In this document: positions 26,578 to 39,776 of the stretch, piece by piece
How the letters are laid out: the number at the start of each line of letters is the position of its first letter
Position numbering within the stretch: position 1 is the first letter of the stretch
From: Cognatundibacterium squillarum
Lineage (GTDB): Bacteria > Pseudomonadota > Gammaproteobacteria > Burkholderiales > Burkholderiaceae_D
Assembly (NCBI RefSeq): GCF_014652435.1
Contig: NZ_BMYU01000001.1
Location: 558,001-622,000 of the forward strand
Length of the DNA: 64,000 nucleotides
Direction of reading: 5' to 3'
The notes under the pieces: generated by a model
Database searches by the model: none
Told to the model about the DNA's origin: nothing
The model's input: the letters and a program-made list of their open reading frames with translations, nothing else
Position numbers and translations under genes: made by a program

Positions 26578-28011
26578 TCAGCCAGCAAAGGTATAACTGG
26601 TTTTCATGGTCGTGAAGAATTCAACAGCAGCAGAGCCCTGTTCACGCGCACCGTAACTGGAGCCTTTGGTGCCGCCGAACGGCACATGGTAGTCCACACC
26701 GGCTGTCGGCACATTCACCATCACCATACCGGCACGTGCATGACGCTTGAAGTGTGTAGCATGCTTCAGAGATGTTGTGCAAATACCGGCTGTTAAGCCA
26801 AATTCCGTATCGTTTGCCAGTTGCAGCGCATGTTCATAATTCTTCGCCGGAATAACCGAAGCAACCGGGCCAAAGATTTCTTCACGTGCATGCACCATAG
26901 CCGGATCACAATCAGTAAACAGTGCAGGATTCAGGAAATAACCTTCTGTGTCGCGTTTCAGCAGATCACCGCCAAATGCCAGCGTGGCACCTTCGTTTTT
27001 CGCAATTTCGATATAGCGAAGATTCTGTTCCAGTTGCGACTGATCAGCAACCGGACCGATATCAATGCCAGCGTGCAATGCATGACCAACTTTAATTTGC
27101 GCGAGCTTGTCTTTCATTGCAGCGACAAATGCGTGATAAATGCCCTCTTCCACGATCAGGCGGGAAGATGCGGTACAACGCTGGCCGGTGGAATAGAAAG
27201 CACCCTGAATGGCGGCATTTACCGCAACATTCAGATCTGTATCCGCCAAAATCACCAGCGGATTTTTACCACCCATTTCCAGCTGCACTTTGGCACGGCG
27301 CGCTGCACACGCTGTCAGCACACGCGTACCCGTTGCAACGGATCCGGTAAAGCTGATTGCATCAACACGACGGTCATTCACCATCGCCTCACCGACAACA
27401 CGACCAGGGCCGGAAACCAGATTAAATACACCTGCAGGCAAACCGGAACGGCTGATAATTTCCGCCATTTCCCAAGAGCAGCCCGGTACCAGATCCGCCG
27501 GCTTCAACAACACGGTATTGCCGTAAGCCAGTGCCGGAGCGACTTTCCAAGCAGGAATCGCAATCGGGAAATTCCATGGCGCAATGATACCGACAGTACC
27601 AACTGGTTCACGGGTCACATCCACATCAAGACCGGGACGTACCGATGCCAGCTTGTCGCCACGAATGCGCAATGCTTCCTGCGCAAAAAATTTGAAAATG
27701 GCGGCTGCACGCCCGACTTCACCAATTGCCTCCGGCAAGGTCTTACCTTCTTCACGCGCCAGCAAAGTACCGAGCTCATTTTTGCGCTCATTGATTTCAG
27801 TACCGATTTTATCGAGGATATCGGCACGCAGCTGAACATTAGAATGTCGCCAGGATTCAGCAGCATTGCTGGCTGCAGCAATCGCCATCTCAACTTCGTT
27901 TGTTCCGGCGCTGGCATATTCGCCAACCACATCACTCAAATCAGAAGGGCTGCGCGTTGTGGTAACTTTTGCGCCTTCTAACCATTCACCATTAATAAAA
28001 AGTTTCTTCAT
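26578..28011 (-). CDS. Aldehyde dehydrogenase, probable 2-oxoglutarate semialdehyde dehydrogenase
   Basis: NAD(P)+-dependent oxidation of an aldehyde to an acid. It has 477 residues: the cofactor motif FTGSVATG near 230, catalytic Glu in LEMGGKNP near 250 and catalytic Cys in GQRCTAS near 285. It is the last gene of a five-gene operon whose other members match 4-hydroxyproline degradation, so the expected substrate is 2,5-dioxopentanoate, giving 2-oxoglutarate. The start overlaps the preceding stop by one base and has AAGGA upstream. The specificity is inferred from context. Confidence 0.87.
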   Translation of the reverse strand: MKKLFINGEWLEGAKVTTTRSPSDLSDVVGEYASAGTNEVEMAIAAASNAAESWRHSNVQLRADILDKIGTEINERKNELGTLLAREEGKTLPEAIGEVGRAAAIFKFFAQEALRIRGDKLASVRPGLDVDVTREPVGTVGIIAPWNFPIAIPAWKVAPALAYGNTVLLKPADLVPGCSWEMAEIISRSGLPAGVFNLVSGPGRVVGEAMVNDRRVDAISFTGSVATGTRVLTACAARRAKVQLEMGGKNPLVILADTDLNVAVNAAIQGAFYSTGQRCTASSRLIVEEGIYHAFVAAMKDKLAQIKVGHALHAGIDIGPVADQSQLEQNLRYIEIAKNEGATLAFGGDLLKRDTEGYFLNPALFTDCDPAMVHAREEIFGPVASVIPAKNYEHALQLANDTEFGLTAGICTTSLKHATHFKRHARAGMVMVNVPTAGVDYHVPFGGTKGSSYGAREQGSAAVEFFTTMKTSYTFAG

Positions 28012-29297
28012 TACTTAGCTTCCTTAAGAGAAGAGGCAGCAATCGCTGCAAGAGTTGATGTTCTGCATGGAAATACAGGCTGGCGTAATTCAGGTGCATC
28101 CCAGCCAAACATGGTTTGACAGGCTGCGCCACAGATTCGTCCCTGGCAGGCACCCATACCAGCGCGGGTAACCAGTTTTGCGGCGCGCCAGCTATCGTGC
28201 TGGCGTAATTCAGCAAGTGACACGTCTTCGCAACGGCAAACCAGTGTGGCATCAGAAGCGAGCTGACGCATCTCCTCAGACACCGCAAATGTCTCACGTA
28301 ACAAATGCATGAAGTGTTGAGCATGCTCACGCTTCGTTTCATCGTCCTGACTAACGACCTGATCACTTGCAGCCAGTCCGGCAATATGCCCTTCAGCAAT
28401 CGCCTTCTCAACACCACCAAAACCCGTGATTTCACCGGCGGCATAGATGTGGGGTGCAGAAGTACACTGACGCTCATCGTGCGTCACTACACCTGCAGCC
28501 ACATTACAGCCGAGTAAGCGTGCAATTTCTGTGTTAGGTATAATGCCAAAGCCACAAGCGAGCATATCAGCCTGCACTGTCATTAATTCCCCGCCACGCC
28601 GCAAGTGCACTTCCGTCAGCTGAGCGTCTCCAACCGCCTTTTCAATAAGGACATTGCTCAGGTAAGGTATTTTTTTCAGCGACCAGTACAGTGAGATTGC
28701 CTGTGTTGCTTTACTCCGGTGATGCAGACATAACTGCCACATAAACCGTGACAATGCTGAAAATGGCTGCGCTTCGGCAACCAGCAGTACTTCGGCACCG
28801 GCTTTATGCGCTGTTTCTGCGACTGCCAGCAATAGTGGCCCGGTTCCCGCGATCACAATACGCTTACCGCGCACATCCGCACCCGCCTTAATCAGGGCTT
28901 GCAAGCCGCCGGCGCCTGTTACTCCCGGCAATGTCCAGCCATCGAATGGCAGTAAGAGTTCTCGTCCGCCATTGCAAAGAATCAGTCGCTCATAGCGAAC
29001 ACTGACGACTTTATCAGCCAGTTCGAAAATTGCTTCATGCGTATGGTTGAAGGCGACCAGACGTGCACTGTGCAGCCACTGCACATTCAGCGCATTCTGA
29101 CAACGATCCCAGAAAATGCCTGCGCGTGTATCCGGCACTTTCTTTGGCCCGCCGCGCCAGATTTGCCCGCCGGGTACCGGATTATCGTCTGCGATCAGTA
29201 TCTGTTTACCGGAATTCAGTGCCGCACTTGCCGCTGCCAGCCCTGCCGGTCCGGCACCGATAATCAGAATGCCGGTTTGTAATTCCTGAAGCTTCAT
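28011..29297 (-). CDS. Flavin dehydrogenase subunit with C-terminal BFD-like cluster (HcnB/LhpE type)
   Basis: A 428-residue FAD/NAD-binding subunit with dinucleotide motif IIGAGPAGLAAASAAL at residues 12-27 and a second GTGPLLLAVAETA near 150. The C-terminal Fe-S domain shows CRCED and later GACQGRICGAAC, matching the BFD-like [2Fe-2S] domain. It is predicted to form a heterotrimer with the ferredoxin-like and oxidase-like subunits encoded upstream, the arrangement of hydrogen cyanide synthase HcnABC and of D-hydroxyproline dehydrogenase. The hydroxyproline function is favoured because the deaminase and semialdehyde dehydrogenase flank it. Confidence 0.87.
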   Translation of the reverse strand: MKLQELQTGILIIGAGPAGLAAASAALNSGKQILIADDNPVPGGQIWRGGPKKVPDTRAGIFWDRCQNALNVQWLHSARLVAFNHTHEAIFELADKVVSVRYERLILCNGGRELLLPFDGWTLPGVTGAGGLQALIKAGADVRGKRIVIAGTGPLLLAVAETAHKAGAEVLLVAEAQPFSALSRFMWQLCLHHRSKATQAISLYWSLKKIPYLSNVLIEKAVGDAQLTEVHLRRGGELMTVQADMLACGFGIIPNTEIARLLGCNVAAGVVTHDERQCTSAPHIYAAGEITGFGGVEKAIAEGHIAGLAASDQVVSQDDETKREHAQHFMHLLRETFAVSEEMRQLASDATLVCRCEDVSLAELRQHDSWRAAKLVTRAGMGACQGRICGAACQTMFGWDAPELRQPVFPCRTSTLAAIAASSLKEAK

Positions 29298-29560
29298 ACG
29301 GCTGCTTTCTTATCCGTCTGTATGACCATACCTGCTTCACACATCGTCTGACATGCAAGGCTGTGCGGATGCCCGTTGATCTGTACGCGGCATTCCTGAC
29401 AAATTCCCATACCACAAACAGCAAATCGCGCAGCACCAGCAACAGAACGACGCGTCAGCAGGGATTCTTCTTTCATCAGGAGCGCGGCTACACTAACACC
29501 TTGCTCTGCTTCAACTTGTTTGCCATTGACCCAGAGTCTGATCCGGTTTTTATCAGGCAT
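29294..29560 (-). CDS. Small [2Fe-2S] ferredoxin-like subunit (HcnA/LhpF type)
   Basis: An 88-residue subunit with a cluster-binding pattern CGMGICQEC followed by CQTMC, typical of the small subunit of HcnABC-type dehydrogenases. It overlaps the upstream oxidase gene by 8 bases and the downstream gene by 4 bases (ATGA), implying coupled translation. It passes electrons between the two flavin subunits. RBS GGGAG lies inside the preceding gene. Confidence 0.88.
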   Translation of the reverse strand: MPDKNRIRLWVNGKQVEAEQGVSVAALLMKEESLLTRRSVAGAARFAVCGMGICQECRVQINGHPHSLACQTMCEAGMVIQTDKKAAV

Positions 29561-30686
29561 AGTGCAATTTCTCCCGGGTTATGAAACGCGAAGGGTCATA
29601 AGGCTGCATATCAAGCGCAGTCGGTTTTCCCGACATCTGTGCCGCAAGCAAATGTGCTGTCGCGAATGCCGTTGTAACGCCCAGCCCTTCATGTCCGGCT
29701 GCGATCCAGATTCCAGTTTGTACCGGATGCTGTCCGATCACAGGATGTCCATCCGGCGAAGCCGGTCGCATCCCCGCCCAGGCACGGATAATCCGCATCT
29801 CTGCAAGACAAGGTAATAATTCGGTTGCCGATCGCAGCACTGCGCTCAGTGCGCGCGGGTCCAGCGCCGTATCTGTTTGCTGATCCTGCCTGCAGGAACC
29901 AATCAGCCATTGTCCGGTTGGTCTCGGCTGAACATTGGCAGCAACAGTCAGCGCATCTGCAGTCACCGCAGCCTGACCATAATTCATGCTGACCACCTGA
30001 TGCTGCAGCCGTCCCGGATAGCGATCCGTAATCGCGAGGTGCCCTTTGCGCGGGAAAATTCTGAAATCCGGTAATAAGCGACTGACACTGGTACCTGCAG
30101 CGACAACGATCTGTTCTGCATGTAAAGTGCTGCCATCACTGAGGATCACACCATCCTGATGCAAAGAGACGACGGCGCGTCCGAATTCGCACCTTCCCCC
30201 AGCTTTACGTAGCTGCTCTGTCAGATAGTGCGCAACTGCGGGCGGGTAAATGACTGCGTCGCCGGATACTCGCACACCGCCTGCCAAACCACTGCGCAGG
30301 CTGGGCTCCAGCCGGCGTAACTGGTCGCTGCTCACCAGTCCGGCGCGCCAGTGATGATGGTTCAGCCGTTCAGCACGGCGTGCTGCTTCTGCCAGTTGCT
30401 CTTCATTCTCAGCAACCCACAAAGTACCGCACTGACTGTAATCACCGACACCGGGATGCTCCCGAACGAAGTCCTGCCACAGATTCAGCGCGTACAGGCA
30501 CAGATTCAGTTCATCTTCAGATTCATCCAGCGCGACCAGATGTCCCATACCGGCAGCAGTCACACCGCTTCCGGGAGACTTTTCATCAACCAGTGTGACC
30601 CGGTAACCCTGTTGCTGCAAAGTGAAAGCGCAGGCCGATCCAACGATGCCTGCGCCTATCACCAGCACATCGGCTTTGTTGCCCAT
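29553..30686 (-). CDS. FAD-dependent D-amino-acid oxidase-like subunit (HcnC/LhpB type)
   Basis: A 377-residue flavoprotein of the DAO family. The FAD motif VIGAGIVGSACAFTLQQ lies at residues 9-25 and the second-half motif AGHEGLGVTTAFATAHLL near the C-terminus. This subunit binds the amino-acid substrate; in D-hydroxyproline dehydrogenase it makes 1-pyrroline-4-hydroxy-2-carboxylate. AGGTGAT precedes the ATG. Glycine (cyanide synthesis) is an alternative substrate for the family but is unlikely given the neighbouring deaminase. Confidence 0.87.
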   Translation of the reverse strand: MGNKADVLVIGAGIVGSACAFTLQQQGYRVTLVDEKSPGSGVTAAGMGHLVALDESEDELNLCLYALNLWQDFVREHPGVGDYSQCGTLWVAENEEQLAEAARRAERLNHHHWRAGLVSSDQLRRLEPSLRSGLAGGVRVSGDAVIYPPAVAHYLTEQLRKAGGRCEFGRAVVSLHQDGVILSDGSTLHAEQIVVAAGTSVSRLLPDFRIFPRKGHLAITDRYPGRLQHQVVSMNYGQAAVTADALTVAANVQPRPTGQWLIGSCRQDQQTDTALDPRALSAVLRSATELLPCLAEMRIIRAWAGMRPASPDGHPVIGQHPVQTGIWIAAGHEGLGVTTAFATAHLLAAQMSGKPTALDMQPYDPSRFITREKLHYA

Positions 30687-30707
30687 GTGTTGATCACCTA
30701 TCTCAGA

Positions 30708-31604
30708 TTATGCAAAGCTTGGCAGCTTAGGACGGTTCGCCAGAGCAGCTTTAACAACTGCTTCTGCACGTGTACGTGGCTCGCCTTCCAGCGGCATACG
30801 TGGCAAACGTACGCGTTCGTTAGAGTCGATCACCATGGCTTCAACCAGTTTGATGTTCTGAACCAGATATGTGGAAACGTCCAGATCCAGCAATGGACGG
30901 AACCAGCGGTAAATATCCAGCGCTTCAGCGTAACGGCCAGCCTGAACCAGGCGGTAGATTGCAACGGTTTCGTGCGGGAATGCCACCACCAGACCGGCAA
31001 CCCAGCCAATCGCACCGGCTGTCAGTGCTTCGAATGCCAGATTATCCACACCAGTGAAAACGTCATAGCGACGACCCAGACGATTGATGATTTCTGTTGT
31101 ACGGCGGATATCATCGGAAGATTCTTTCACCGCGACGAAACGCTTGTCGTCTGCCAGTTCTTCCAGCATATCGGTTGTCACATCAACACGGTAAGCAATA
31201 CGGTTGGAGTAAATCATGACTGGCAGATCTGCTGCTGCAGCGATTGCACGCAGATTAGCAATCGTTTCTTTTGCATTGGTGTGATAGATGGTGCTTGGTA
31301 CAACCATCAGACCGTCAGCGCCTGCTTTCGCGCCTTTTTCTGCCAGCGCACATGCATCGCGAGTGGATGCCTCAGCCACGGTCAGCAATGCAGGTTTTGC
31401 ACCGGTCACTTGCTTAGTGACTTTCAGAACTTCAATACGTTCATCATGCGACAGGAATGGGCCCTCACCCAGAGAACCGCAAGCGATCAGACCATCGCAG
31501 CCTGCATCCATCAGGAACTTGAAGCAACGCTCCATTTCGTTATAGTCCAGCTTGTCGTCGGCTGTGAATTTAGTCGTTACCGCAGGAATAACACCTTGCC
31601 ACAT
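30708..31604 (-). CDS. DHDPS-family lyase, probable 1-pyrroline-4-hydroxy-2-carboxylate deaminase
   Basis: A 298-residue (beta/alpha)8 enzyme of the dihydrodipicolinate synthase/N-acetylneuraminate lyase family. The Schiff-base lysine is in FVAVKESSDD (about residue 164). The usual YNNP-type Tyr motif reads IYSNRIAYRVD near 133, a variant seen outside true DapA. Gene order points to deamination of 1-pyrroline-4-hydroxy-2-carboxylate to 2-oxoglutarate semialdehyde. It is the first gene of the operon, with AAGGT before the ATG. Confidence 0.85.
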   Translation of the reverse strand: MWQGVIPAVTTKFTADDKLDYNEMERCFKFLMDAGCDGLIACGSLGEGPFLSHDERIEVLKVTKQVTGAKPALLTVAEASTRDACALAEKGAKAGADGLMVVPSTIYHTNAKETIANLRAIAAAADLPVMIYSNRIAYRVDVTTDMLEELADDKRFVAVKESSDDIRRTTEIINRLGRRYDVFTGVDNLAFEALTAGAIGWVAGLVVAFPHETVAIYRLVQAGRYAEALDIYRWFRPLLDLDVSTYLVQNIKLVEAMVIDSNERVRLPRMPLEGEPRTRAEAVVKAALANRPKLPSFA

Positions 31605-32179: not shown

Positions 32180-33745
32180 TTACTCATGCATTTTCGGATA
32201 ACCGGTAATTTCCTGTATGGATTTGTACAGGGGTTGCAGACGACTGTACATTTTGCAATAGACTTTTTTGTACAGCGCATCATACATCTGATGATGATGT
32301 GCAATCGGTTCAAAGGTCCGGCCAATGCGGGTCATGGCTGCGATGGCACTATGAAAATCGCTGTAACACCCGACACCGACAGCCGCATTAATTGCCGCAC
32401 CGAGTCCGGACGTTTCATAGACGTGAGGTCTGGAAGTAGGCAGACCAAAAATATCCGCGGTCAGCTGCATCGCCGCATCGCTTTGCGAGCCGCCACCGGA
32501 TATCCGCAGACTGGTGACAGCAACGCCGCTGCGTTTTTCGATACGCTCTTTTCCTTCACGCAAGGCATAGGCCAGCCCTTCAAGAATGGCGCGATACATA
32601 TGCGCACGGTTATGAACATCACCGAACCCTATCATGGCACCTTTGGCTTCCGGCCCCGGGATTTTGATGCCCGGCGTCCAGTAAGGCTGTAGCATTAATC
32701 CCATTGCCCCCGGTGGTACGGAATTCACCAGTTCGTCGAACAGGCTTTCAGGCGATACACCCAGCTGTTCGGCTGCCAGACGCTCGTTTAAGCCGAATTG
32801 TTCCTTAAACCAGTTGACCATCCAGTAGCCACGGAAAATCTGCACTTCTGTGCTGTAAGCGCCCGGAATAGCCGCCGGATACGGCGGGATAAACGGTGTG
32901 ACTTCCACATATTTGCGGCTGGTTGTGTTGATCGTCGCCGTTGTGCCGTAGCTAAGACATCCGATATGCGGCGCTTCGCAACCTGCGCCAATCACTTCGC
33001 AGGCTTTATCTGCTGCTGCCGCAATCACCGGCGTACCTTCCAGCAGGCCGGTCATTGCAGCAGCACTGGCTGTGATCTTACCCAGCAGACTGCCCGGAGG
33101 AACCAGTTCCGGCAACATCTCTTCTTTTACCGCCAGCGCCTGCCATTTCCAGTCCCATTTGGGTGCCCAGCGCAAACCTTTGTAATCAAACGGAATATAG
33201 CCAACCTGCGAGCCGGAAGAATCACGAATACAACCGGTAAGACGATAGTTCAGGAAACCGGACAACAGCAGAAAGTGCGCGGTTTTATCCCAGATTTCCG
33301 GCTGCATGTGTTTGATCCAGTTCAGCTCGGCCTCACCCCGGAAAAAACGGATGGTATCAGCCACACCGGCAACCTTAAACGCGGCCAGCCACAGTGGATT
33401 GACGGGCGGATAGTGTTCGGTACGGCGCTGATCCAGCCATGTGATTGCGAGACGCAAAGGCTGCCCCTGCGCATCAAGATTCACTACAGTGCCGCGCTGC
33501 GTGGTCACCGAGACCGCTGCCACATGCTCCGGCCCCGCGGAAGATTGCGCCCATAGACGCTGGCAGGCGGTACACACTGCCTGCCAGTAACCGTCTGCAT
33601 CGTGCTCAGCCCAGCCGGGCTGCGCAGAAAAATAGGCTTCCAGATGCACCTGCGATTTGGCAACGATATTTCCGTGCACATCAAACAAAATTGCGCGTAC
33701 GCTCTGAGTGCCGTTATCGATGGCGAGCAGATACGTTGCCGACAT
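32180..33745 (-). CDS. FGGY-family carbohydrate kinase
   Basis: ATP-dependent polyol or sugar kinase of 521 residues. The N-terminal domain has the phosphate loop AIDNGTQSVRAILFD (residues 8-22) and PGWAEHDADGYW. The C-terminal domain has SYGTTATINTTS and SGGGSQSDAAMQ (residues near 410-420). It is related to glycerol kinase and xylulokinase but has neither exact signature. Its neighbours are a glycerol-3-phosphate dehydrogenase and an alkyl-DHAP-synthase-like flavoprotein, so glycerol or an alkylglycerol is a reasonable substrate by inference. GAGGGG precedes the ATG. Confidence 0.87.
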   Translation of the reverse strand: MSATYLLAIDNGTQSVRAILFDVHGNIVAKSQVHLEAYFSAQPGWAEHDADGYWQAVCTACQRLWAQSSAGPEHVAAVSVTTQRGTVVNLDAQGQPLRLAITWLDQRRTEHYPPVNPLWLAAFKVAGVADTIRFFRGEAELNWIKHMQPEIWDKTAHFLLLSGFLNYRLTGCIRDSSGSQVGYIPFDYKGLRWAPKWDWKWQALAVKEEMLPELVPPGSLLGKITASAAAMTGLLEGTPVIAAAADKACEVIGAGCEAPHIGCLSYGTTATINTTSRKYVEVTPFIPPYPAAIPGAYSTEVQIFRGYWMVNWFKEQFGLNERLAAEQLGVSPESLFDELVNSVPPGAMGLMLQPYWTPGIKIPGPEAKGAMIGFGDVHNRAHMYRAILEGLAYALREGKERIEKRSGVAVTSLRISGGGSQSDAAMQLTADIFGLPTSRPHVYETSGLGAAINAAVGVGCYSDFHSAIAAMTRIGRTFEPIAHHHQMYDALYKKVYCKMYSRLQPLYKSIQEITGYPKMHE

Positions 33746-33839
33746 AAGTCCCCTCGTTTCTTTTTTCTTTATCTTTATTTTTTATTTCAGCTTCGTTGAT
33801 GTGGCGCGACTGCATTTTTCCGGATGACTTCCGGATTGT

Positions 33840-35456
33840 TCAACTGTTCTGCAAGCAGACAGCAGGCAACTGATATGCATCGCGCCAGATCGCCAGATAG
33901 CGCTGCTGTTCGAACTGCCAGCGCTGATCATCCCAGCCCAGCGCAGTCTGACACAGGCCACGCAGCACTGACAAGTGAGCTTCACCACCCTGCGGCAGAA
34001 TCAGCCCGTAACGTGTGCGCCGCAGCAGCAAATCATCCAGATGATGCACGCTTTCATGTCTGGCACACCAGACCAGCTCAGCCCACAGAATCTGAGTACC
34101 GGCGACAAATGCCTCCGGCACATTACACCGGATACTTAGTATGTCCCGCGCCGCATTGCCGTAGTACCCGCACAAGCGCTGCCACAAATCAGCAGGGATC
34201 CCGGTAGGCGTGTTGATTTCGTTCAGCGGGCTGAATAACCGTTCATGCCCGACCGCCGCATCAGGTAATGGCAGAACGTCGGACAAACTATCCAGCGCCT
34301 CTTTTGCAATCAGGCGGAACGTCGTCAGCTTGCCGCCCGTCACCGTCAGCAAACCATTTTCCTGCCATAACACATGATCACGCGAGACTTGCGAAGGATC
34401 GGCGTGTCCGTCATCGACTACCGGCCTTACACCCGCATAGCAGGACAGCACATCGGCTGTGGTCAGCGCCAGCGAAGGAAATTGCCAGTGCAGAGCACGC
34501 ATCAGGTAATCCACTTCTTGCTTGCTGATGCGCGGTTCCTGATCAGCAGACTCCTGATGATCCAGATCCGTGGTCCCCACCAGCGTTACCCCTTCCCACG
34601 GATACAGAAAAACCGGACGGCCGTCATCCGGATGCAGCAGGCTGACCGCCTGCGCCACCGGCAAACGCCATGCCGGAAATAGTAAATGACTGCCGCGTAA
34701 CGGGCGCAGTTTCTGCGTATCCGGAAGCACTTTCCGCAACTGATCCGACCATGCGCCGCAGGCATTTATAACGATCTTTGCTCTGACTTCGACAATGTCG
34801 TCGCTGTCTGCAGCGCAAAGCGCAGCTCCGCAGACCTGATCACCGTCATATAACAAATGCTGCACTTTCAGATAATTCCGACACACTGCACCCAGTGCGC
34901 GTGCTTCCTGCAGTACCCGCAACACCAGTCGCACGTCATCGGTTTTCGCATCCAGATAGCACATACCGCCGTCCAGCCCTTCGGCGCGGATATGCGGCGC
35001 CAGCCAGCGGTATTCGGTCTGGTTATACTGATGGCGCGCATGGCTACCGGCCATTTTGTCGTAGATGGCCAGCCCCAGCGCAAACAGCCAGCGCGACGGG
35101 CCTTTACCGCGATAATGGCTGAACGCAAAACTCTGCGGCTGTACCAGCCCCGGCGCTTCATTCAGCAAGCGCTGACGTTCGCGCACTGAATCACGGGTGA
35201 GTTTCCACTGCCCTTCTTTCAGATAGCGCAGACCACCGTGTACCAGTTTGGATGAACGACTGGAGCTGCCCCAGGCGAAATCTTTTTGCTCTGCCAGCAA
35301 AACACGGTAACCGGCCCGCGCCGCTTCCAGCGCAATCCCCGCACCGGTAATACCGCCTCCGGCAATCAGAATATCCACTTCTGCCGGCAGTGTTTGCGCA
35401 CTCCCGTTATTTGCGATGCGCTGGCTGCGCCAGTCATGCTCACCGTTCACAGACAT
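33840..35456 (-). CDS. glpD: FAD-dependent glycerol-3-phosphate dehydrogenase (GlpD family)
   Basis: A 538-residue membrane-associated flavoenzyme that oxidises sn-glycerol 3-phosphate to DHAP and reduces quinone. The FAD motif IAGGGITGAGIALEAARAG lies at residues 30-48, with the family signature SSRSSKLVHGGLRYL near residue 70. The C-terminal DAO_C domain follows residue 390. It starts 4 bases after the upstream flavoprotein gene, with AAAGGAG inside that gene. Membership in this cluster rather than next to glpK/glpF suggests a dedicated paralogue that may accept an O-substituted glycerol phosphate. Confidence 0.9.
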   Translation of the reverse strand: MSVNGEHDWRSQRIANNGSAQTLPAEVDILIAGGGITGAGIALEAARAGYRVLLAEQKDFAWGSSSRSSKLVHGGLRYLKEGQWKLTRDSVRERQRLLNEAPGLVQPQSFAFSHYRGKGPSRWLFALGLAIYDKMAGSHARHQYNQTEYRWLAPHIRAEGLDGGMCYLDAKTDDVRLVLRVLQEARALGAVCRNYLKVQHLLYDGDQVCGAALCAADSDDIVEVRAKIVINACGAWSDQLRKVLPDTQKLRPLRGSHLLFPAWRLPVAQAVSLLHPDDGRPVFLYPWEGVTLVGTTDLDHQESADQEPRISKQEVDYLMRALHWQFPSLALTTADVLSCYAGVRPVVDDGHADPSQVSRDHVLWQENGLLTVTGGKLTTFRLIAKEALDSLSDVLPLPDAAVGHERLFSPLNEINTPTGIPADLWQRLCGYYGNAARDILSIRCNVPEAFVAGTQILWAELVWCARHESVHHLDDLLLRRTRYGLILPQGGEAHLSVLRGLCQTALGWDDQRWQFEQQRYLAIWRDAYQLPAVCLQNS

Positions 35457-35459
35457 ACT

Positions 35460-37064
35460 TCAGTCTCCTTTCGCCGCAACACATTTACCGGGATTCATCA
35501 TGTCCTGCGGATCAAAATGGCGGTAAAGACTGCGTATCACTTCCAGCCCCGCTTGCCCTTTTTCCACATGCAGATACGGGGCATGATCCAGCCCGACGCC
35601 ATGCTGATGGCTGATGGTGCCGCCAAATGTTGTGATCGCTTCGGATGCTGCGCGCTTCAATCGCTGCCAGCGCCGCAAATCCGTCTGATAATCGCCACTC
35701 AGACGGTACACAAACGTGGTGTACACACTCGCTCCCTGCGTGTACACATGCGACAAATGCGTATAGGTGTGAACAGCCTCGCCCTCTTCGGCGAATGCGC
35801 CACGCGCCGCCTGCTCCACTGCCTGCATCAGCGGCGTGATGCGCGACCAGTCAGTCGCCGTTTCCACCGTATCAATTGCGTATCCCATATCCCATAAGGT
35901 GTTACGCAGATACACATTGCGGAAGCGCCCGTGCTGCCACTTCTTCCCCAGCAAGGTCCCGAGTCCGATACCGCTGTGCTGACGCCAGACCTGTTTCGCC
36001 TGCTGCAAAGCCTGCCGCACCTGCAATGCACTGCCACTGGTACCGATAATCGCCATGCATTTCTGCTCCGCGCAACCACGCCAGCGCAGGTAACGCTCCA
36101 GCCACGTCACTTGCTGCACATGCCCTGCCAGTTTCAGGCTGGTTGCGGTTTCGGTTGCGTTCGACAGACGCAGCATGGATAAAGGAATTTGCTGCTGCGC
36201 CATTTGCCGCAGCGCCTGCCTTCCGCTTTCCCAGTCCGGAAAACATACAGCAATGAAACTTTCTTTTTCCGGCAAGCGCTGCACCCGTACGGTTACATCC
36301 GTCAGCACGCCGATGCGCCCTTCTGAGCCCAGCACGATTTCACGCAAATCCGTACCCGCAGCGGATGCCGGAAATGCGCGGATATCCAGCGAACCACCCG
36401 GCGTTTCCAGATGCCCGCCCGCAAACATGGCTTCGATGCGGCCATAACCCAGCGATTGCTGACCGGACGAACGCGTTACCACCCAGCCGCCCAGACTGGA
36501 ATATTCAAACGATTGCGGGAAATGCCCCAGCGTAAAGCCCCGCGCACGCAGTTGCGCTTCCAGATCCGGTCCCAGCACACCGGCACCGAAAGTTGCCAGT
36601 TGCGCTTCCGTATCCAGCGATTGCAATTGCATCATGCGCTGCATCACCAGCGTGATGACTGGCCGTGACGAAGCCTGCACATTCACATGACCCGCCACGC
36701 TGGTCCCTCCGCCGTAAGGAATCACCACACAACCTTGCTGCGCCGCCTGTTGCAGCACTGCGCGAACCTCTTCCCGACTTTCCGGAAACGCCACCGCATC
36801 CGGTGCCTGTGCAATCAGCCCGTAGCGTAATTGCAGCCAGTCGGGCAGGCTCTGCCCCAGACTGTAGCGGATACGCTGTGCCGGATTCGTCGTCCACAGT
36901 TTTGTGTCGTCCAGTCTTGACGCCGACAAGCGGGCAATCGCTGTGTTCAAATCCGCATTTGGACCATTTTTGGCCTCTCCGAGCACTTCCAGCAGGAATA
37001 GTTTTGCCTCCGGCGCCAGCGGCAGCTGAACCTGCTCATCCCCCCAACCATTCCATCTGCGCAT
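35460..37064 (-). CDS. Alkyl-DHAP-synthase-like FAD-binding oxidase
   Basis: A 534-residue flavoprotein of the vanillyl-alcohol-oxidase fold. The FAD loop YGGGTSVAGHV (residues about 130) and SSLGGWVVTRSSGQQS with YGRIE downstream match alkyldihydroxyacetonephosphate synthase more than glycolate or lactate oxidases. Near the C-terminus it has ISHQHGVGLDHA, where AGPS has SHHHGVG and glycolate oxidases have a GEHGIG-type motif. The ATG at 37064 is preceded by AAAGGA; the frame up to 37139 is unsupported. AGPS exchanges an acyl group for an alkyl group on DHAP; the reverse would release DHAP from ether lipids. Confidence 0.85.
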   Translation of the reverse strand: MRRWNGWGDEQVQLPLAPEAKLFLLEVLGEAKNGPNADLNTAIARLSASRLDDTKLWTTNPAQRIRYSLGQSLPDWLQLRYGLIAQAPDAVAFPESREEVRAVLQQAAQQGCVVIPYGGGTSVAGHVNVQASSRPVITLVMQRMMQLQSLDTEAQLATFGAGVLGPDLEAQLRARGFTLGHFPQSFEYSSLGGWVVTRSSGQQSLGYGRIEAMFAGGHLETPGGSLDIRAFPASAAGTDLREIVLGSEGRIGVLTDVTVRVQRLPEKESFIAVCFPDWESGRQALRQMAQQQIPLSMLRLSNATETATSLKLAGHVQQVTWLERYLRWRGCAEQKCMAIIGTSGSALQVRQALQQAKQVWRQHSGIGLGTLLGKKWQHGRFRNVYLRNTLWDMGYAIDTVETATDWSRITPLMQAVEQAARGAFAEEGEAVHTYTHLSHVYTQGASVYTTFVYRLSGDYQTDLRRWQRLKRAASEAITTFGGTISHQHGVGLDHAPYLHVEKGQAGLEVIRSLYRHFDPQDMMNPGKCVAAKGD

Positions 37065-37163
37065 GTTGTCTGTCCTTTTTTCCGTTTTCTGACAAGTTGC
37101 CGTAAGATTAGCGAGGTCCGTCAGGCGCGTATTGCGCACAGACGTCAGGATTTTTGCGAAAAC

Positions 37164-38207
37164 ATGCCAAACACCGATTTACGCCCTGCCACCGGTCCGT
37201 CCACTACTCACATTGTCAGCCTTGCATATCTGCAACCGCTGCAGGATGTGCTGCATGCCCGCAACAGTTCGCTCGAAAATCTGATGCAGCATGCGGGTCT
37301 GCGGCACAACGCCGCAGCGGATGTCATGCCCGCCGGCCACTATCTGCAATTACTCGATGCCGGTGCGGCGCTGTTCGATGATCCGTTTTTTGGTCTGCAT
37401 TGCGGAGAAAAGACGCGGCTTGGCGCCTATAACGTGTACGGGATGATCCTGATGAGCTGTCAGGATCTCGGGGAAGCACTGCATCAGACCATGCGCTATG
37501 AAGAACTGGCGCATGATCTGGGCAGATCTGAATTGCTGATCGACTGCGACTACGCCGAATACCGCTGGCACAGCCACTTTCCGCAAGCCAGCCGCCATCT
37601 GGCAGAAAGTGTGTTTGCGGGCATCCGCGTGTTTGCCGACTGGTTTGCAGGTCAGCCCTTGCCGCCCGGCGAATTACGCTTTCAACATACCGCGCCAACG
37701 GATTGCCGTGAGTATCTGCGGGTGTTCGGCGCGATGCCGGCATTTGAAGCGGATTGTCATGCCGTCCGTTTTCCCGCAGCACTTTTACGCTTACCGGTGC
37801 CGAATGCCGATCAGTCCATGGCCAGTATGCTGCGCCAGCACGCCGACACCCTGCTGCAGAAAAAACGTCAGCAAGCCTTACCGGACATTGTGCGGCAGCT
37901 GCGTCAGTTATTCGAACATCAGCTCAAAAGCGGCGAGCTGAAACTCATCGATGCTGCGGCATACCTGCAAATGAGTGCTCGCACACTGCAACGCAAACTG
38001 GCGGAAGCCGGCACCGGATTCCAGCAAGTGCTGGATCAGACCCGTTATGAGCTGGCTTGTGTGTATCTGGCAAATCAGGAGCTCAGCCTGACCGATATCG
38101 CCTTCCTGCTCGGCTATCAGGAACAAAGCAGCTTCCAGCACGCCTTCCGCAGCTGGAGCGGCATCACACCGGGGCAATACCGTCAGCGCCCACACAGGAC
38201 GACTTGA
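37164..38207 (+). CDS. AraC-family regulator of the FGGY/GlpD/AGPS-like cluster
   Basis: A 347-residue regulator. The N-terminal ligand domain (residues 15-210) is of the arabinose-binding-like type seen in OruR/ArgR-type AraC proteins. Two helix-turn-helix motifs occupy residues about 250-340 (AAYLQMSARTLQRKLAEAG and TDIAFLLGYQEQSSFQHAFRSWSG). It diverges from the flavoprotein gene across a 99-bp gap and is the likely activator of the three-gene cluster. The inducer is unknown. Confidence 0.9.
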   Translation: MPNTDLRPATGPSTTHIVSLAYLQPLQDVLHARNSSLENLMQHAGLRHNAAADVMPAGHYLQLLDAGAALFDDPFFGLHCGEKTRLGAYNVYGMILMSCQDLGEALHQTMRYEELAHDLGRSELLIDCDYAEYRWHSHFPQASRHLAESVFAGIRVFADWFAGQPLPPGELRFQHTAPTDCREYLRVFGAMPAFEADCHAVRFPAALLRLPVPNADQSMASMLRQHADTLLQKKRQQALPDIVRQLRQLFEHQLKSGELKLIDAAAYLQMSARTLQRKLAEAGTGFQQVLDQTRYELACVYLANQELSLTDIAFLLGYQEQSSFQHAFRSWSGITPGQYRQRPHRTT

Positions 38208-38344: not shown

Positions 38345-39103
38345 ATGTTGATCCGACGCGCTTTAAAGCTCCGTGCTGACGAAGTTAAGTCTGCCATTAC
38401 CCGCCTCGATACTCCACTACTAATCCAGAACAGTCCGGAATTCGCTGATTTTTGCGCGGACTGGAATTTACAAAATCTGCGGTCAATGACCGAAGATCAA
38501 CTGGTCAGTATCGTTACTGCGAACCGCGAACAAGAGGCAACCCGATTCCGGGAAGTCAGTCTGCATCAGTTCCTGAACAGCCTGCATCTGCGTCACCAAC
38601 AAGACTTTCGCTATTTGAAAGAATTTCCACTCAACGCATTGCATCACGAGTTACCCAAGGCACTGGCACAACACCGCTTTATTCCGAAATCCGGAATCGC
38701 CGGCAATGCATGGATAGGCAGCGGCCAGACAACAACCGGTACGCACTTCGATCTGTTCGATAACTTACTGTTTCAGGTCGATGGTAGCAAAGCAATCTGG
38801 CTCGCGCCACCTTACGCAATCTCCCGCCAGCAGTACTCCCGAAAATATGATCGTTTTGCACGACTTGCGACAACGCAACTGGCTGAGCTGCCGGACGCTG
38901 TCCGGATTGAAGTGCAGCGAGGTGATTTACTTTTCATCCCGCGCCGCTGGTGGCATCAGGTGCAAAACCTGACCCCTTCTTTCACCGTCAGCGGCTTCCA
39001 TTACAGCCGCACAGAAATACTGACACGTGCTGTTCCTGAATACCTGCGCCACGGTGCGCACTGCATAAACCCTTTACGAAGAGAGTGTACTTGCCATGTC
39101 TGA
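38345..39103 (+). CDS. JmjC/cupin-8-like protein, possible 2-oxoglutarate oxygenase
   Basis: A 252-residue protein with a cupin-like domain. The iron-binding triad is recognisable: THFD (H-x-D) near residue 139 and a distal His in RWWHQVQN near residue 202, with GDLLFIPRRWWHQ as the hallmark strand of JmjC/cupin-8 hydroxylases. It may hydroxylate a protein or small molecule using iron and 2-oxoglutarate. The C-terminus overlaps the next gene by 8 bases, implying linked expression. The target is unknown. Confidence 0.8.
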   Translation: MLIRRALKLRADEVKSAITRLDTPLLIQNSPEFADFCADWNLQNLRSMTEDQLVSIVTANREQEATRFREVSLHQFLNSLHLRHQQDFRYLKEFPLNALHHELPKALAQHRFIPKSGIAGNAWIGSGQTTTGTHFDLFDNLLFQVDGSKAIWLAPPYAISRQQYSRKYDRFARLATTQLAELPDAVRIEVQRGDLLFIPRRWWHQVQNLTPSFTVSGFHYSRTEILTRAVPEYLRHGAHCINPLRRECTCHV

Positions 39104-39776
39104 CTTAACCGTACGATTGCTAAGCAATGCGGATCTGGATGCCCTGTTAACCCTGGAACATAAGAAATGGGAGCCTTCCCAGTGTGCAAGCCGCGAAATG
39201 TTATCCGTTCGCCTGATGCATTTACCAAGAACCAGCTGGGGTGCATTTCGTGCCAATGGCGAACTGGTCGGCAGCCTGTTTGTGATGCGTAAATGCCGGC
39301 AGCGACTTGCTTTAAGCAAGAACTGGTACGAAACCACCCACGGCGGCATTGGTTTTCCGGAGGATGATGCACCCTATTGGTTCGGTATCAGCCTGACCTG
39401 TGACGATATTCATGCACAGTCTGCGTTGTTTGCCTTTGCCATGCAAAGCGCACTGGAACAAGGTATACGCTCGGTATTTCTGGGCTCACCGGTACCCGGT
39501 TTCGCAAAAGCACGTCAGCGGCAACCGGAATTAAGTCTGCAGGAATATGTCGCCCAGACCAGAACTGACAAACGCGGCGGTACCGCCGTACCGGCAGATC
39601 CTCAGCTTTACTACTATCACCAGCGCGGATTTAACCAGATTCTGGCTGCGCACGAAAATTACTTTGAACATGATGCAGCACTGAATTGCGCTGCGCTGCT
39701 GGAATACGTGCTTATCCCCGATCCGGCGGTTTCACAGAATCAAACCACCGAAATCCCCGGCAGAACCTGGATGTAA
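39096..39776 (+). CDS. GNAT-like acyltransferase
   Basis: A 226-residue protein whose first 120 residues fit the N-acetyltransferase fold (SDLTVRLLSNADLDALLTLE, WGAFRANGELVGSLFV). The C-terminal part DPQLYYYHQRGFNQIL (near 180) matches the last strands of the fold. The acetyl-CoA loop is poorly conserved, so the acyl donor is uncertain. It overlaps the JmjC-like gene by 8 bases, so both probably modify the same target. Confidence 0.7.
   Translation: MSDLTVRLLSNADLDALLTLEHKKWEPSQCASREMLSVRLMHLPRTSWGAFRANGELVGSLFVMRKCRQRLALSKNWYETTHGGIGFPEDDAPYWFGISLTCDDIHAQSALFAFAMQSALEQGIRSVFLGSPVPGFAKARQRQPELSLQEYVAQTRTDKRGGTAVPADPQLYYYHQRGFNQILAAHENYFEHDAALNCAALLEYVLIPDPAVSQNQTTEIPGRTWM

Follow-up and report, generated by a model that had tools for sequence, protein, structure and literature searches.

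The window analysed here is a 64,000-nt stretch of Cognatundibacterium squillarum (GCF_014652435.1, contig NZ_BMYU01000001.1, positions 558,001-622,000, forward strand), in which three reverse-strand genes lie opposite a divergent regulator, all four assigned with Pfam/NCBIfam models. The first encodes an AGPS-family flavoprotein (35460..37064; FAD_binding_4 and FAD-oxidase_C domains) of 534 aa when read from the ATG at 37064; the frame is open from a GTG at 37139 (559 aa), and we consider the ATG the more likely start because a 98%-identical protein (P0001) is 534 aa long. A GlpD-family FAD dehydrogenase (33840..35456; 538 aa; DAO and DAO_C domains) follows after 3 nt and an FGGY-family kinase (32180..33745; 521 aa; FGGY_N and FGGY_C domains) after a further 94 nt, whilst a GliR-like AraC-family regulator (37164..38207, forward strand; Arabinose_bd and HTH_18 domains) is divergently encoded. 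An earlier note on this DNA had described an operon of these three enzymes facing the AraC gene, and all four genes were recovered where it had placed them. The same gene order was found across many lineages, which excludes a chance arrangement.

The unstranded intergenic region between the AGPS-like and AraC genes (37065..37163) is the presumed location of the operon promoter; a promoter scan found no sigma-70-like site in this region, and GliR motif A occurs there only at three mismatches, with 243 matches at three or fewer mismatches spread throughout the window against 176 expected, an uninformative result. The gene set itself is already known from Pseudomonas aeruginosa, where PA3027 (gliR)/PA3026-PA3024(-PA3023) has been published with a proposed role in synthesis (PMC8151288). 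Likened via the published description and the NCBIfam model, that cluster and the window share gene order, a divergent AraC regulator and enzyme classes, but the window regulator, whose best NCBIfam match is GliR (NF050186), scores 211 bits, far short of the 570 required by the GliR model. A strain deleted for PA3026-PA3024 showed no phenotype when tried on citrate, on glycerol and on nine BIOLOG plates (PMC8151288), which we count against a breakdown role. The present analysis adds evidence from comparison in favour of breakdown, the role that the earlier note had suggested, with glycerol ethers as the substrate.

The flavoprotein belongs with AGPS

AGPS, the alkyl-DHAP synthase, builds ether lipids in animals. 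By sequence, the best solved relatives of the flavoprotein are the Dictyostelium AGPS (2uuu, E 2e-82) and the guinea pig AGPS (4bby, 1e-54), with the D-lactate dehydrogenase 8jdb (4e-26) ranking behind both, which places it nearer to AGPS than to hydroxyacid dehydrogenases. In alignment, R324, R412 and Y473 correspond to Dictyostelium R352, R447 and Y508, described in an excerpt of PMC3509576 as important for catalysis, and are invariant in 95/95 window-type rows. The triple His of guinea pig AGPS (615-617) is incomplete: in the window motif SHQHGVG (35592..35612, reverse strand; residues 510-516 of the 559-aa frame) the middle His is replaced, Q512 standing at the H616 position. All 95 window-type (Q-type) rows have Gln here, and every other AGPS-family row with a letter at this position has His. 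Compared with the Dictyostelium and guinea pig AGPS (ADPS), the window enzyme shares the family, both catalytic Arg, the Tyr and two of the three His, but differs in this Gln, in its phylogenetic placement (window-type flavoproteins form a separate 100/100 clade, apart from guinea-pig AGPS) and in its linkage to GlpD and a kinase instead of an acyltransferase.

The HxGDGNxH motif is absent from the window flavoprotein and from the AGPS family as sampled (0/141 rows), but present in all three FAD-linked oxidases examined from the same genome (L002, L003 and L005), two of which also carry an EHGIG motif. A hydroxyacid dehydrogenase identity was rejected on this motif. The earlier note's claim that the C-terminal HQHGVG matches AGPS rather than glycolate oxidases is upheld as to kind, but fails as an exact match, SHQHGVG in the window standing against SHHHGVG in AGPS. 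In the literature searched we found no demonstration of net reversal of AGPS, which counts against a breakdown role.

The kinase and the GlpD-like dehydrogenase

The cluster kinase is not GlpK (171 bits against a TIGR01311 cut-off of 590); the model that it matches best is that of xylulokinase (251 bits), whilst an AI-2 kinase is the top solved relative, and both count against breakdown of glycerol ethers. The GlpK pocket is changed in nearly all cluster kinases: the Glu present in 30/30 GlpKs is replaced by G, A or S in 80/84 and the Phe is a gap in 82/84, whilst the pocket Asp is kept in 84/84. Both Glu and Phe, which we take to be glycerol-binding residues, are missing from the window kinase. 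A true GlpK is encoded elsewhere in all 35 module-bearing genomes tested, in contrast to the statement in PMC8151288 that identified strains outside Pseudomonas have no glpD or glpK.

The GlpD-like enzyme scores 299-300 bits against the GlpD model NF008899, below the cut-off of 360, and has the GlpD fold with conserved catalytic motifs. A separate true GlpD lies elsewhere in 21/35 of these genomes; in 11/35, C. squillarum included, the cluster gene is the sole GlpD-like match (E ≤ 1e-30), so that it could also serve plain glycerol. With GlpK-GlpD glycerol catabolism the window has in common a kinase followed by an FAD dehydrogenase leading to a DHAP-type product, but its kinase pocket is changed, a separate GlpK is present and a third enzyme is added. 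Ordinary glycerol or polyol catabolism, with the flavoprotein as a hydroxyacid dehydrogenase or accessory enzyme, would agree with the GlpD fold, the 11 genomes and an XylB/LsrK-like kinase, yet it must contend with GlpK elsewhere in every genome, a separate GlpD in most and the distribution of HxGDGNxH, and we consider it very improbable. That the cluster serves chiefly as a plain GlpK/GlpD glycerol operon was set aside on the GlpK found elsewhere, the GlpD counts and the changed pocket; a side role in glycerol use stays alive because of the 11 genomes.

Neighbouring genes across lineages

Loci were tallied after 2/141 rows were dropped as identical, many of the remaining rows being close kin, such that the loci cannot be counted as independent. 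Searches for acyltransferase, FadR and SDR genes used phmmer with no more than two queries per target (two for the acyltransferase), and misses are possible. Within 6 kb of window-type loci, GlpD was found in 89/93 and an FGGY kinase in 79/93 (in L102 the kinase gene is 5.4 kb off and lies on the opposite strand), whilst a PlsC-type acyltransferase was detected near 0/93. The bacterial PlsC-AGPS clusters (L141, L142, L143 and L241) share the AGPS family with the window and group with guinea-pig AGPS (100/100), but differ in their SHHH motif, in PlsC (3/4; beside AGPS in L143 and L241, and sharing one open frame with it in L142) and, in some, in reductase genes (a fatty-acyl-reductase-like gene in L143, an SDR in L241); these clusters look biosynthetic.

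Ether-lipid biosynthesis was also proposed for the Pseudomonas genes (PMC8151288, section 2.5), drawn by the GliR authors as glycerol to G3P, DHAP, acyl-DHAP (via an acyltransferase encoded elsewhere) and alkyl-DHAP. AGPS family membership and the conserved catalytic residues agree with it, but the absence of a detected acyltransferase near window-type loci, set against 3/4 in the guinea-pig-AGPS-like group (a limited comparison, by two phmmer queries), argues otherwise, as does the redundancy of a second glycerol kinase where GlpK is encoded elsewhere in 35/35 genomes. GlpD-type enzymes, moreover, run in the oxidative direction, and on balance we give biosynthesis a low probability.

Other lineages pair AGPS with a different kinase. 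In a clade from another proteobacterial class a DAGK/YegS kinase lies directly upstream of AGPS in 8/9 loci, with GlpD near 7/9, and in two actinobacterial plasmid loci (L317 and L318; three of four plasmid matches were examined) AGPS and a DAGK-family lipid kinase occur with a divergent TetR gene and GlpD. These have the AGPS-like, GlpD and kinase genes in common with the window, but differ in the kinase family, the TetR regulator and a SHHHG or THHHA motif. The mycobacterial glpD1-TetR-flavoprotein-DAGK locus Rv2249c-Rv2252, likened to them by its listing in a table of PMC4564863, may be of the same kind. Pseudomonas-type loci L145, L105, L094 and L106 carry a YegS-like gene downstream (over the cut-off in L145), and FadR over the cut-off lies upstream in two Anaerolineae-type loci (L098 and L115); in the window itself no lipid-kinase match was found at E ≤ 1e-8. 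The joining of a lipid kinase to AGPS and GlpD in other lineages suggests a glycerolipid substrate.

The same logic of phosphorylation, oxidation and cleavage could act on another 1-O-substituted glycerol: a monoacylglycerol, an aryl or isoprenoid glycerol ether, or a glycosylglycerol. A kinase nearest XylB/LsrK with a pocket departing from that of GlpK would allow this, and AGPS itself uses acyl-DHAP, according to an excerpt of PMC3509576. FadR linkage and the DAGK/YegS kinases, however, point to fatty chains. Simple acylglycerols, for their part, would be cut more cheaply by esterases, which speaks against an acylglycerol, and we regard these other substrates as rather unlikely.

The earlier note had proposed comparing orthologous clusters for a linked fatty-alcohol or long-chain dehydrogenase, and the neighbours scanned offer only scattered cases: a GMC oxidoreductase in L093, an SDR in L136 and an SDR-like gene within 6 kb in 2/93 Q-type loci, with no recurring alcohol or aldehyde dehydrogenase among the proteins scanned (single representatives). 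This lack and several other patterns were counted against breakdown: Q-type loci L088 and L095 have neither GlpD nor an FGGY kinase; H-type loci L083, L089 and L140 lie with GlpD, two of the three also with FGGY; a distant AGPS-like group (L235 and L237) occurs with GlpD and FGGY, the L235 kinase being nearer to GlpK (380 bits, cut-off 498); and L319, the last of the three actinobacterial loci examined, lacks GlpD and kinase alike and falls in another part of the tree. Since the three H-type loci also adjoin GlpD, the Gln is not required for the module, and a strict rule by which Gln means catabolic fails.

A candidate route of glycerol-ether breakdown

Taken from sequence comparison, the best explanation is a module for breaking down 1-O-substituted glycerols, most probably 1-O-alkylglycerols (glycerol ethers) set free from ether lipids; we assign this reading a probability of slightly over one half. 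Gene content, conservation, residue patterns and phylogeny are established here; substrate, direction and acceptor are inferred. The kinase would phosphorylate the free sn-3 hydroxyl of a 1-O-alkylglycerol, and the GlpD-family enzyme would oxidise C2 to a ketone, giving alkyl-DHAP and passing electrons to quinone. The flavoprotein would then take the DHAP carbon onto FAD N5 and expel the alkyl chain as a fatty alcohol, releasing DHAP if the acceptor is water or acyl-DHAP if it is a fatty acid; DHAP could enter glycolysis and the fatty alcohol beta-oxidation. This order fits the comparison better than its rivals because no acyltransferase was detected near the 93 window-type loci, GlpK is encoded elsewhere in every genome tested, two other lineages have DAGK/YegS where the window has its FGGY kinase, and FadR adjoins some versions. 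The route sketched in the earlier note is thus partly supported: its comparative fit holds, whilst substrate, direction and last step are predicted.

More tentatively, bacteria may possess a widespread, monooxygenase-free cleavage of glycerol ethers via alkyl-DHAP, with DHAP parked on FAD N5 of an AGPS-family enzyme, kinases from at least two families, DAGK/YegS and FGGY, recruited to one step, the Gln-for-His change tuning the window clade for cleavage, and the actinobacterial glpD1-flavoprotein-DAGK genes serving the same pathway; we regard this combination as possible, with the odds somewhat against it. Alkylglycerol monooxygenase (AGMO), named as the only known alkylglycerol-breaking enzyme in an excerpt of PMC7911779, would share the proposed role of alkylglycerol breakdown, but is a tetrahydrobiopterin-dependent monooxygenase of unrelated chemistry, and no pterin-dependent monooxygenase gene was found when the cluster and its surroundings, nine proteins in all, were scanned. 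The literature searched, which left out most subscription journals and is no proof of absence, yielded no paper on a bacterial alkylglycerol pathway.

If true, a kinase-GlpD-AGPS pathway would explain ether-lipid consumption by many bacteria, and a family of flavoenzymes that form ether bonds would have been turned to breaking them. The reading is directly testable on two kinase families, one HxH motif position and three proteins. It would also give a function to the similar actinobacterial loci and to the published, unexplained Pseudomonas regulon, in which GliR raises the phospholipase C PlcA together with PA3026-PA3023 (PMC8151288), a pattern that we count in favour of breakdown.

Main reading and prior work

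The module of AGPS-family (alkyl-DHAP synthase) flavoprotein, GlpD-family dehydrogenase and kinase is read here as breaking down glycerol ethers by phosphorylation, GlpD oxidation and AGPS-type cleavage (probability roughly 0.53), and that it breaks down 1-O-substituted glycerols in general is distinctly more probable; if the mechanism is right, the AGPS family would here serve in a new role. All four genes lie where the earlier note placed them, by gene call and with Pfam and NCBIfam concordant: the AGPS-family flavoprotein at 35460-37139 (minus strand; start more likely at ATG 37064, given that P0001, a protein 98% identical, has 534 aa), the GlpD-family dehydrogenase at 33840-35456 (minus), the FGGY kinase at 32180-33745 (minus) and an AraC-type regulator at 37164-38207 (plus). 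The 4.19 Mb genome (G000; the window is C1:558001-622000) holds a single AGPS homologue, its other FAD-linked oxidases scoring at most 60 bits. The module is patchy: at the E ≤ 1e-60 level it occurs in 19 of the 60 relatives (own genome included), none of them among the 24 that lie outside the genus, and AGPS-family matches (E ≤ 1e-40 or 1e-50) occur in 10/274 and 12/369 genomes of the class, in overlapping samples, and in 16/299 of the phylum.

The operon itself is already known: PMC8151288 studied it in Pseudomonas aeruginosa, where PA3027 (the AraC regulator GliR) and PA3026-PA3024 are arranged in the same way. There, excess GliR raised PA3026-PA3023 and the phospholipase C PlcA (PA3464) more than 40-fold, and PA3342 also rose; the authors propose conversion of glycerol to alkylglycerone phosphate and saw no effect on growth when the operon was deleted. 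They further report that glpD and glpK homologues are missing from the strains they identified outside Pseudomonas, whereas in our genomes GlpK exceeds its curated cut-off in 35/35 (29 with the FGGY version of the module, six with a DAGK version) and GlpD in 21/35. A proteome study (PMC5491041) lists less PA3026 on C18 alkane than on C16 (0.5 and 0.57), from which we draw no inference.

Gene content of the compared loci

We compared the best 80 of at least 574 relative-encoding stretches (among at least 592 matched), 60 further genome regions and the window; an AGPS-family ORF was present in 141/141 loci, and 139 were kept after removal of two identical rows. Neighbours were counted within 6 kb on both strands, over many congeneric and so non-independent rows: among the 93 loci with window-type homologues (Q-type, motif xHQHG), 89 have GlpD, 79 an FGGY kinase (that of L102 on the opposite strand, 5.4 kb off), 47 a GliR-like AraC gene and seven a FadR-like gene, and no PlsC-type acyltransferase was found in that interval on either strand (0/93). 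Ten have GlpD and no kinase, several of these ending shortly past GlpD. Four lack GlpD. Two of these, L114 and L240, are short contigs; the other two, L088 and L095, are longer and have neither GlpD nor kinase within 6 kb. Within the same distance, SHHHG loci (n = 16) have GlpD in 10, FGGY in two and PlsC in three; xHHHA loci (n = 24) have no GlpD, no FGGY and one PlsC (L141); loci with other motifs (n = 6) have GlpD in three and FGGY in one (L237 too at a looser threshold). Q-type records with GlpD are labelled Pseudomonas, Marinobacter, Pseudovibrio, Anaerolineae, Eremiobacterota, Bacillota and Desulfococcaceae, several being metagenome-assembled genomes whose labels may be wrong.

The FadR-like genes lie upstream of AGPS (7/93), mostly in metagenome-assembled genomes labelled Anaerolineae or kin. 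Of three tested against the FadR equivalog (cut-off 189), L098 (214.6; Pfam FadR_C E 8e-41) and L115 (221.4) exceed it and L087 (175) falls under. Downstream of the kinase in eight P. fluorescens-type loci (L066, L069, L070, L072, L075, L076, L078, L079) lie a gene without Pfam match, DUF1302 and DUF1329, one representative of each cluster having been scanned with Pfam; the set possibly serves uptake of a hydrophobic substrate. A THHHAVG/THHHAIG clade of AGPS-like proteins, well supported in trees (L150, L213-L216, L218-L229, L231, L232, L238, L242-L244), yielded no match to GlpD, FGGY or PlsC in the 6-kb neighbourhood.

Direction of the AGPS-type step

Guinea-pig AGPS falls in a clade of five rows (support 100/100), four of them bacterial, and three of these four carry a PlsC-type acyltransferase, adjoining AGPS in L143 and L241 and sharing an open frame with it in L142. 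The remaining member, L230, comes from a contig of 5 kb. A fatty-acyl-reductase-like gene is also present in L143 and an SDR in L241, and outside the clade L141 has PlsC and an SDR; PlsC with a reductase or SDR is what ether-lipid synthesis requires. The window clade has a kinase and an oxidative GlpD where the acyltransferase is undetected. In L141 and L142 the AGPS homologue adjoins HMG-CoA reductase, with the acyltransferase beside it or in the same open frame, respectively; these loci possibly make ether lipids with isoprenoid chains.

Flavoprotein residues R324, R412 and Y473 correspond in the alignment to R352, R447 and Y508 of the Dictyostelium enzyme, residues that the review PMC3509576 reports as catalytically important, and to guinea-pig R419, R515 and Y578. 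By the same review, the AGPS reaction is ping-pong with the DHAP unit as an N5-flavin adduct, both fatty-acid oxygens are lost and the ether oxygen derives from the alcohol, so cleavage would fall at the C1-O bond. An FAD-held DHAP unit could equally come from alkyl-DHAP and then be discharged by water or fatty acid. Guinea-pig H616 corresponds to Gln512 in 95/95 Q-type rows and is His in every other row with a letter there; the change is a clade marker and not a requirement, since the H-type proteins of L083, L089 and L140 occur with GlpD, two of the three with FGGY too.

Kinase versions

A clade with SHHHGVG, whose genomes belong to a different class of this phylum (probably Alphaproteobacteria), has a DAGK/YegS-type lipid kinase directly upstream of AGPS in 8/9 loci (Pfam on three loci, phmmer on all) and GlpD near 7/9. 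Three of four actinobacterial plasmid matches were inspected: Streptomyces L317 and Tsukamurella L318 are annotated in the order GlpD, TetR, then a divergent FAD-binding oxidoreductase and lipid kinase, and L319, unannotated and with ORFs called by script, yielded no GlpD, DAGK or FGGY, its AGPS grouping with L141. In the tree, a single branch of moderate support (90/76) holds L317 and L318 together with the DAGK and window clades. Consecutive entries in a table of PMC4564863 are mycobacterial Rv2249c (glpD1), Rv2250c (regulator), Rv2251 (flavoprotein) and Rv2252 (diacylglycerol kinase), a possibly similar set. A YegS-like gene also lies 3' of the FGGY kinase in L145, where it exceeds the YegS cut-off, and in L105, L094 and L106, all three Pseudomonas by name. 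These lipid-kinase versions are most simply read as a sign that the substrate of the kinase step is a glycerolipid.

The window FGGY kinase is, by its score, not GlpK (171 bits, cut-off 590), and G000 has a true GlpK at C3:344421 (678 bits). We compared 84 cluster kinases (including those of L102 and L235, which possibly do not belong) with the 30 true GlpKs fetched, at pocket residues that we take to bind glycerol in E. coli GlpK: the Asp of GDQ and the pocket Trp are kept in 84/84, the Glu of QRET is G, A or S in 80, the Gln of GDQ is K in 79, and a two-residue gap falls at the Phe of YGTGCF in 82. The window kinase has xylulokinase as its best single model and an AI-2 kinase as its best solved relative, so its ligand cannot be read from sequence.

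Of 93 cluster copies of the GlpD-like enzyme 90 could be extracted, and the motifs HGGLRY, GxRP and GGK are each kept in 89 or all 90 of these. The module GlpD is the sole GlpD-like match (E ≤ 1e-30) in 11/35 genomes, G000 included, where ORFs around GlpK gave no such match, and may therefore also serve glycerol. As this concerns 11 genomes and not the window's alone, it slightly raises the weight of a plain-glycerol role, which we still consider improbable, and slightly lowers that of ethers. The earlier note proposed to seek a linked fatty-alcohol or long-chain dehydrogenase; no alcohol or aldehyde dehydrogenase recurs among the 50 neighbour proteins scanned, a sample including control loci of other groups. 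These two points and the next weigh against the glycerol-ether proposal; its underlying observation is confirmed and breakdown remains the best supported reading. GlpD, FGGY and an AGPS-like protein together need not always imply ethers, since a distant AGPS-like group (L233, L235, L237) has GlpD in all and FGGY in two, and the kinase of L235 scores closer to GlpK (380 bits, cut-off 498).

Minor observations

The GlpD gene of one genus relative (L133:10662-12283) is apparently broken into two ORFs. In the window, a JmjC/cupin_8 gene is followed by an end-overlapping gene for a 226-aa protein without Pfam or NCBIfam match (38345-39776, plus), and a Pyr_redox_2-type oxidoreductase, a DAO-family oxidase and a DHDPS-family gene are consecutive at 28011-31604 (minus), a row that resembles, and may be, a hydroxyproline-type catabolic set.
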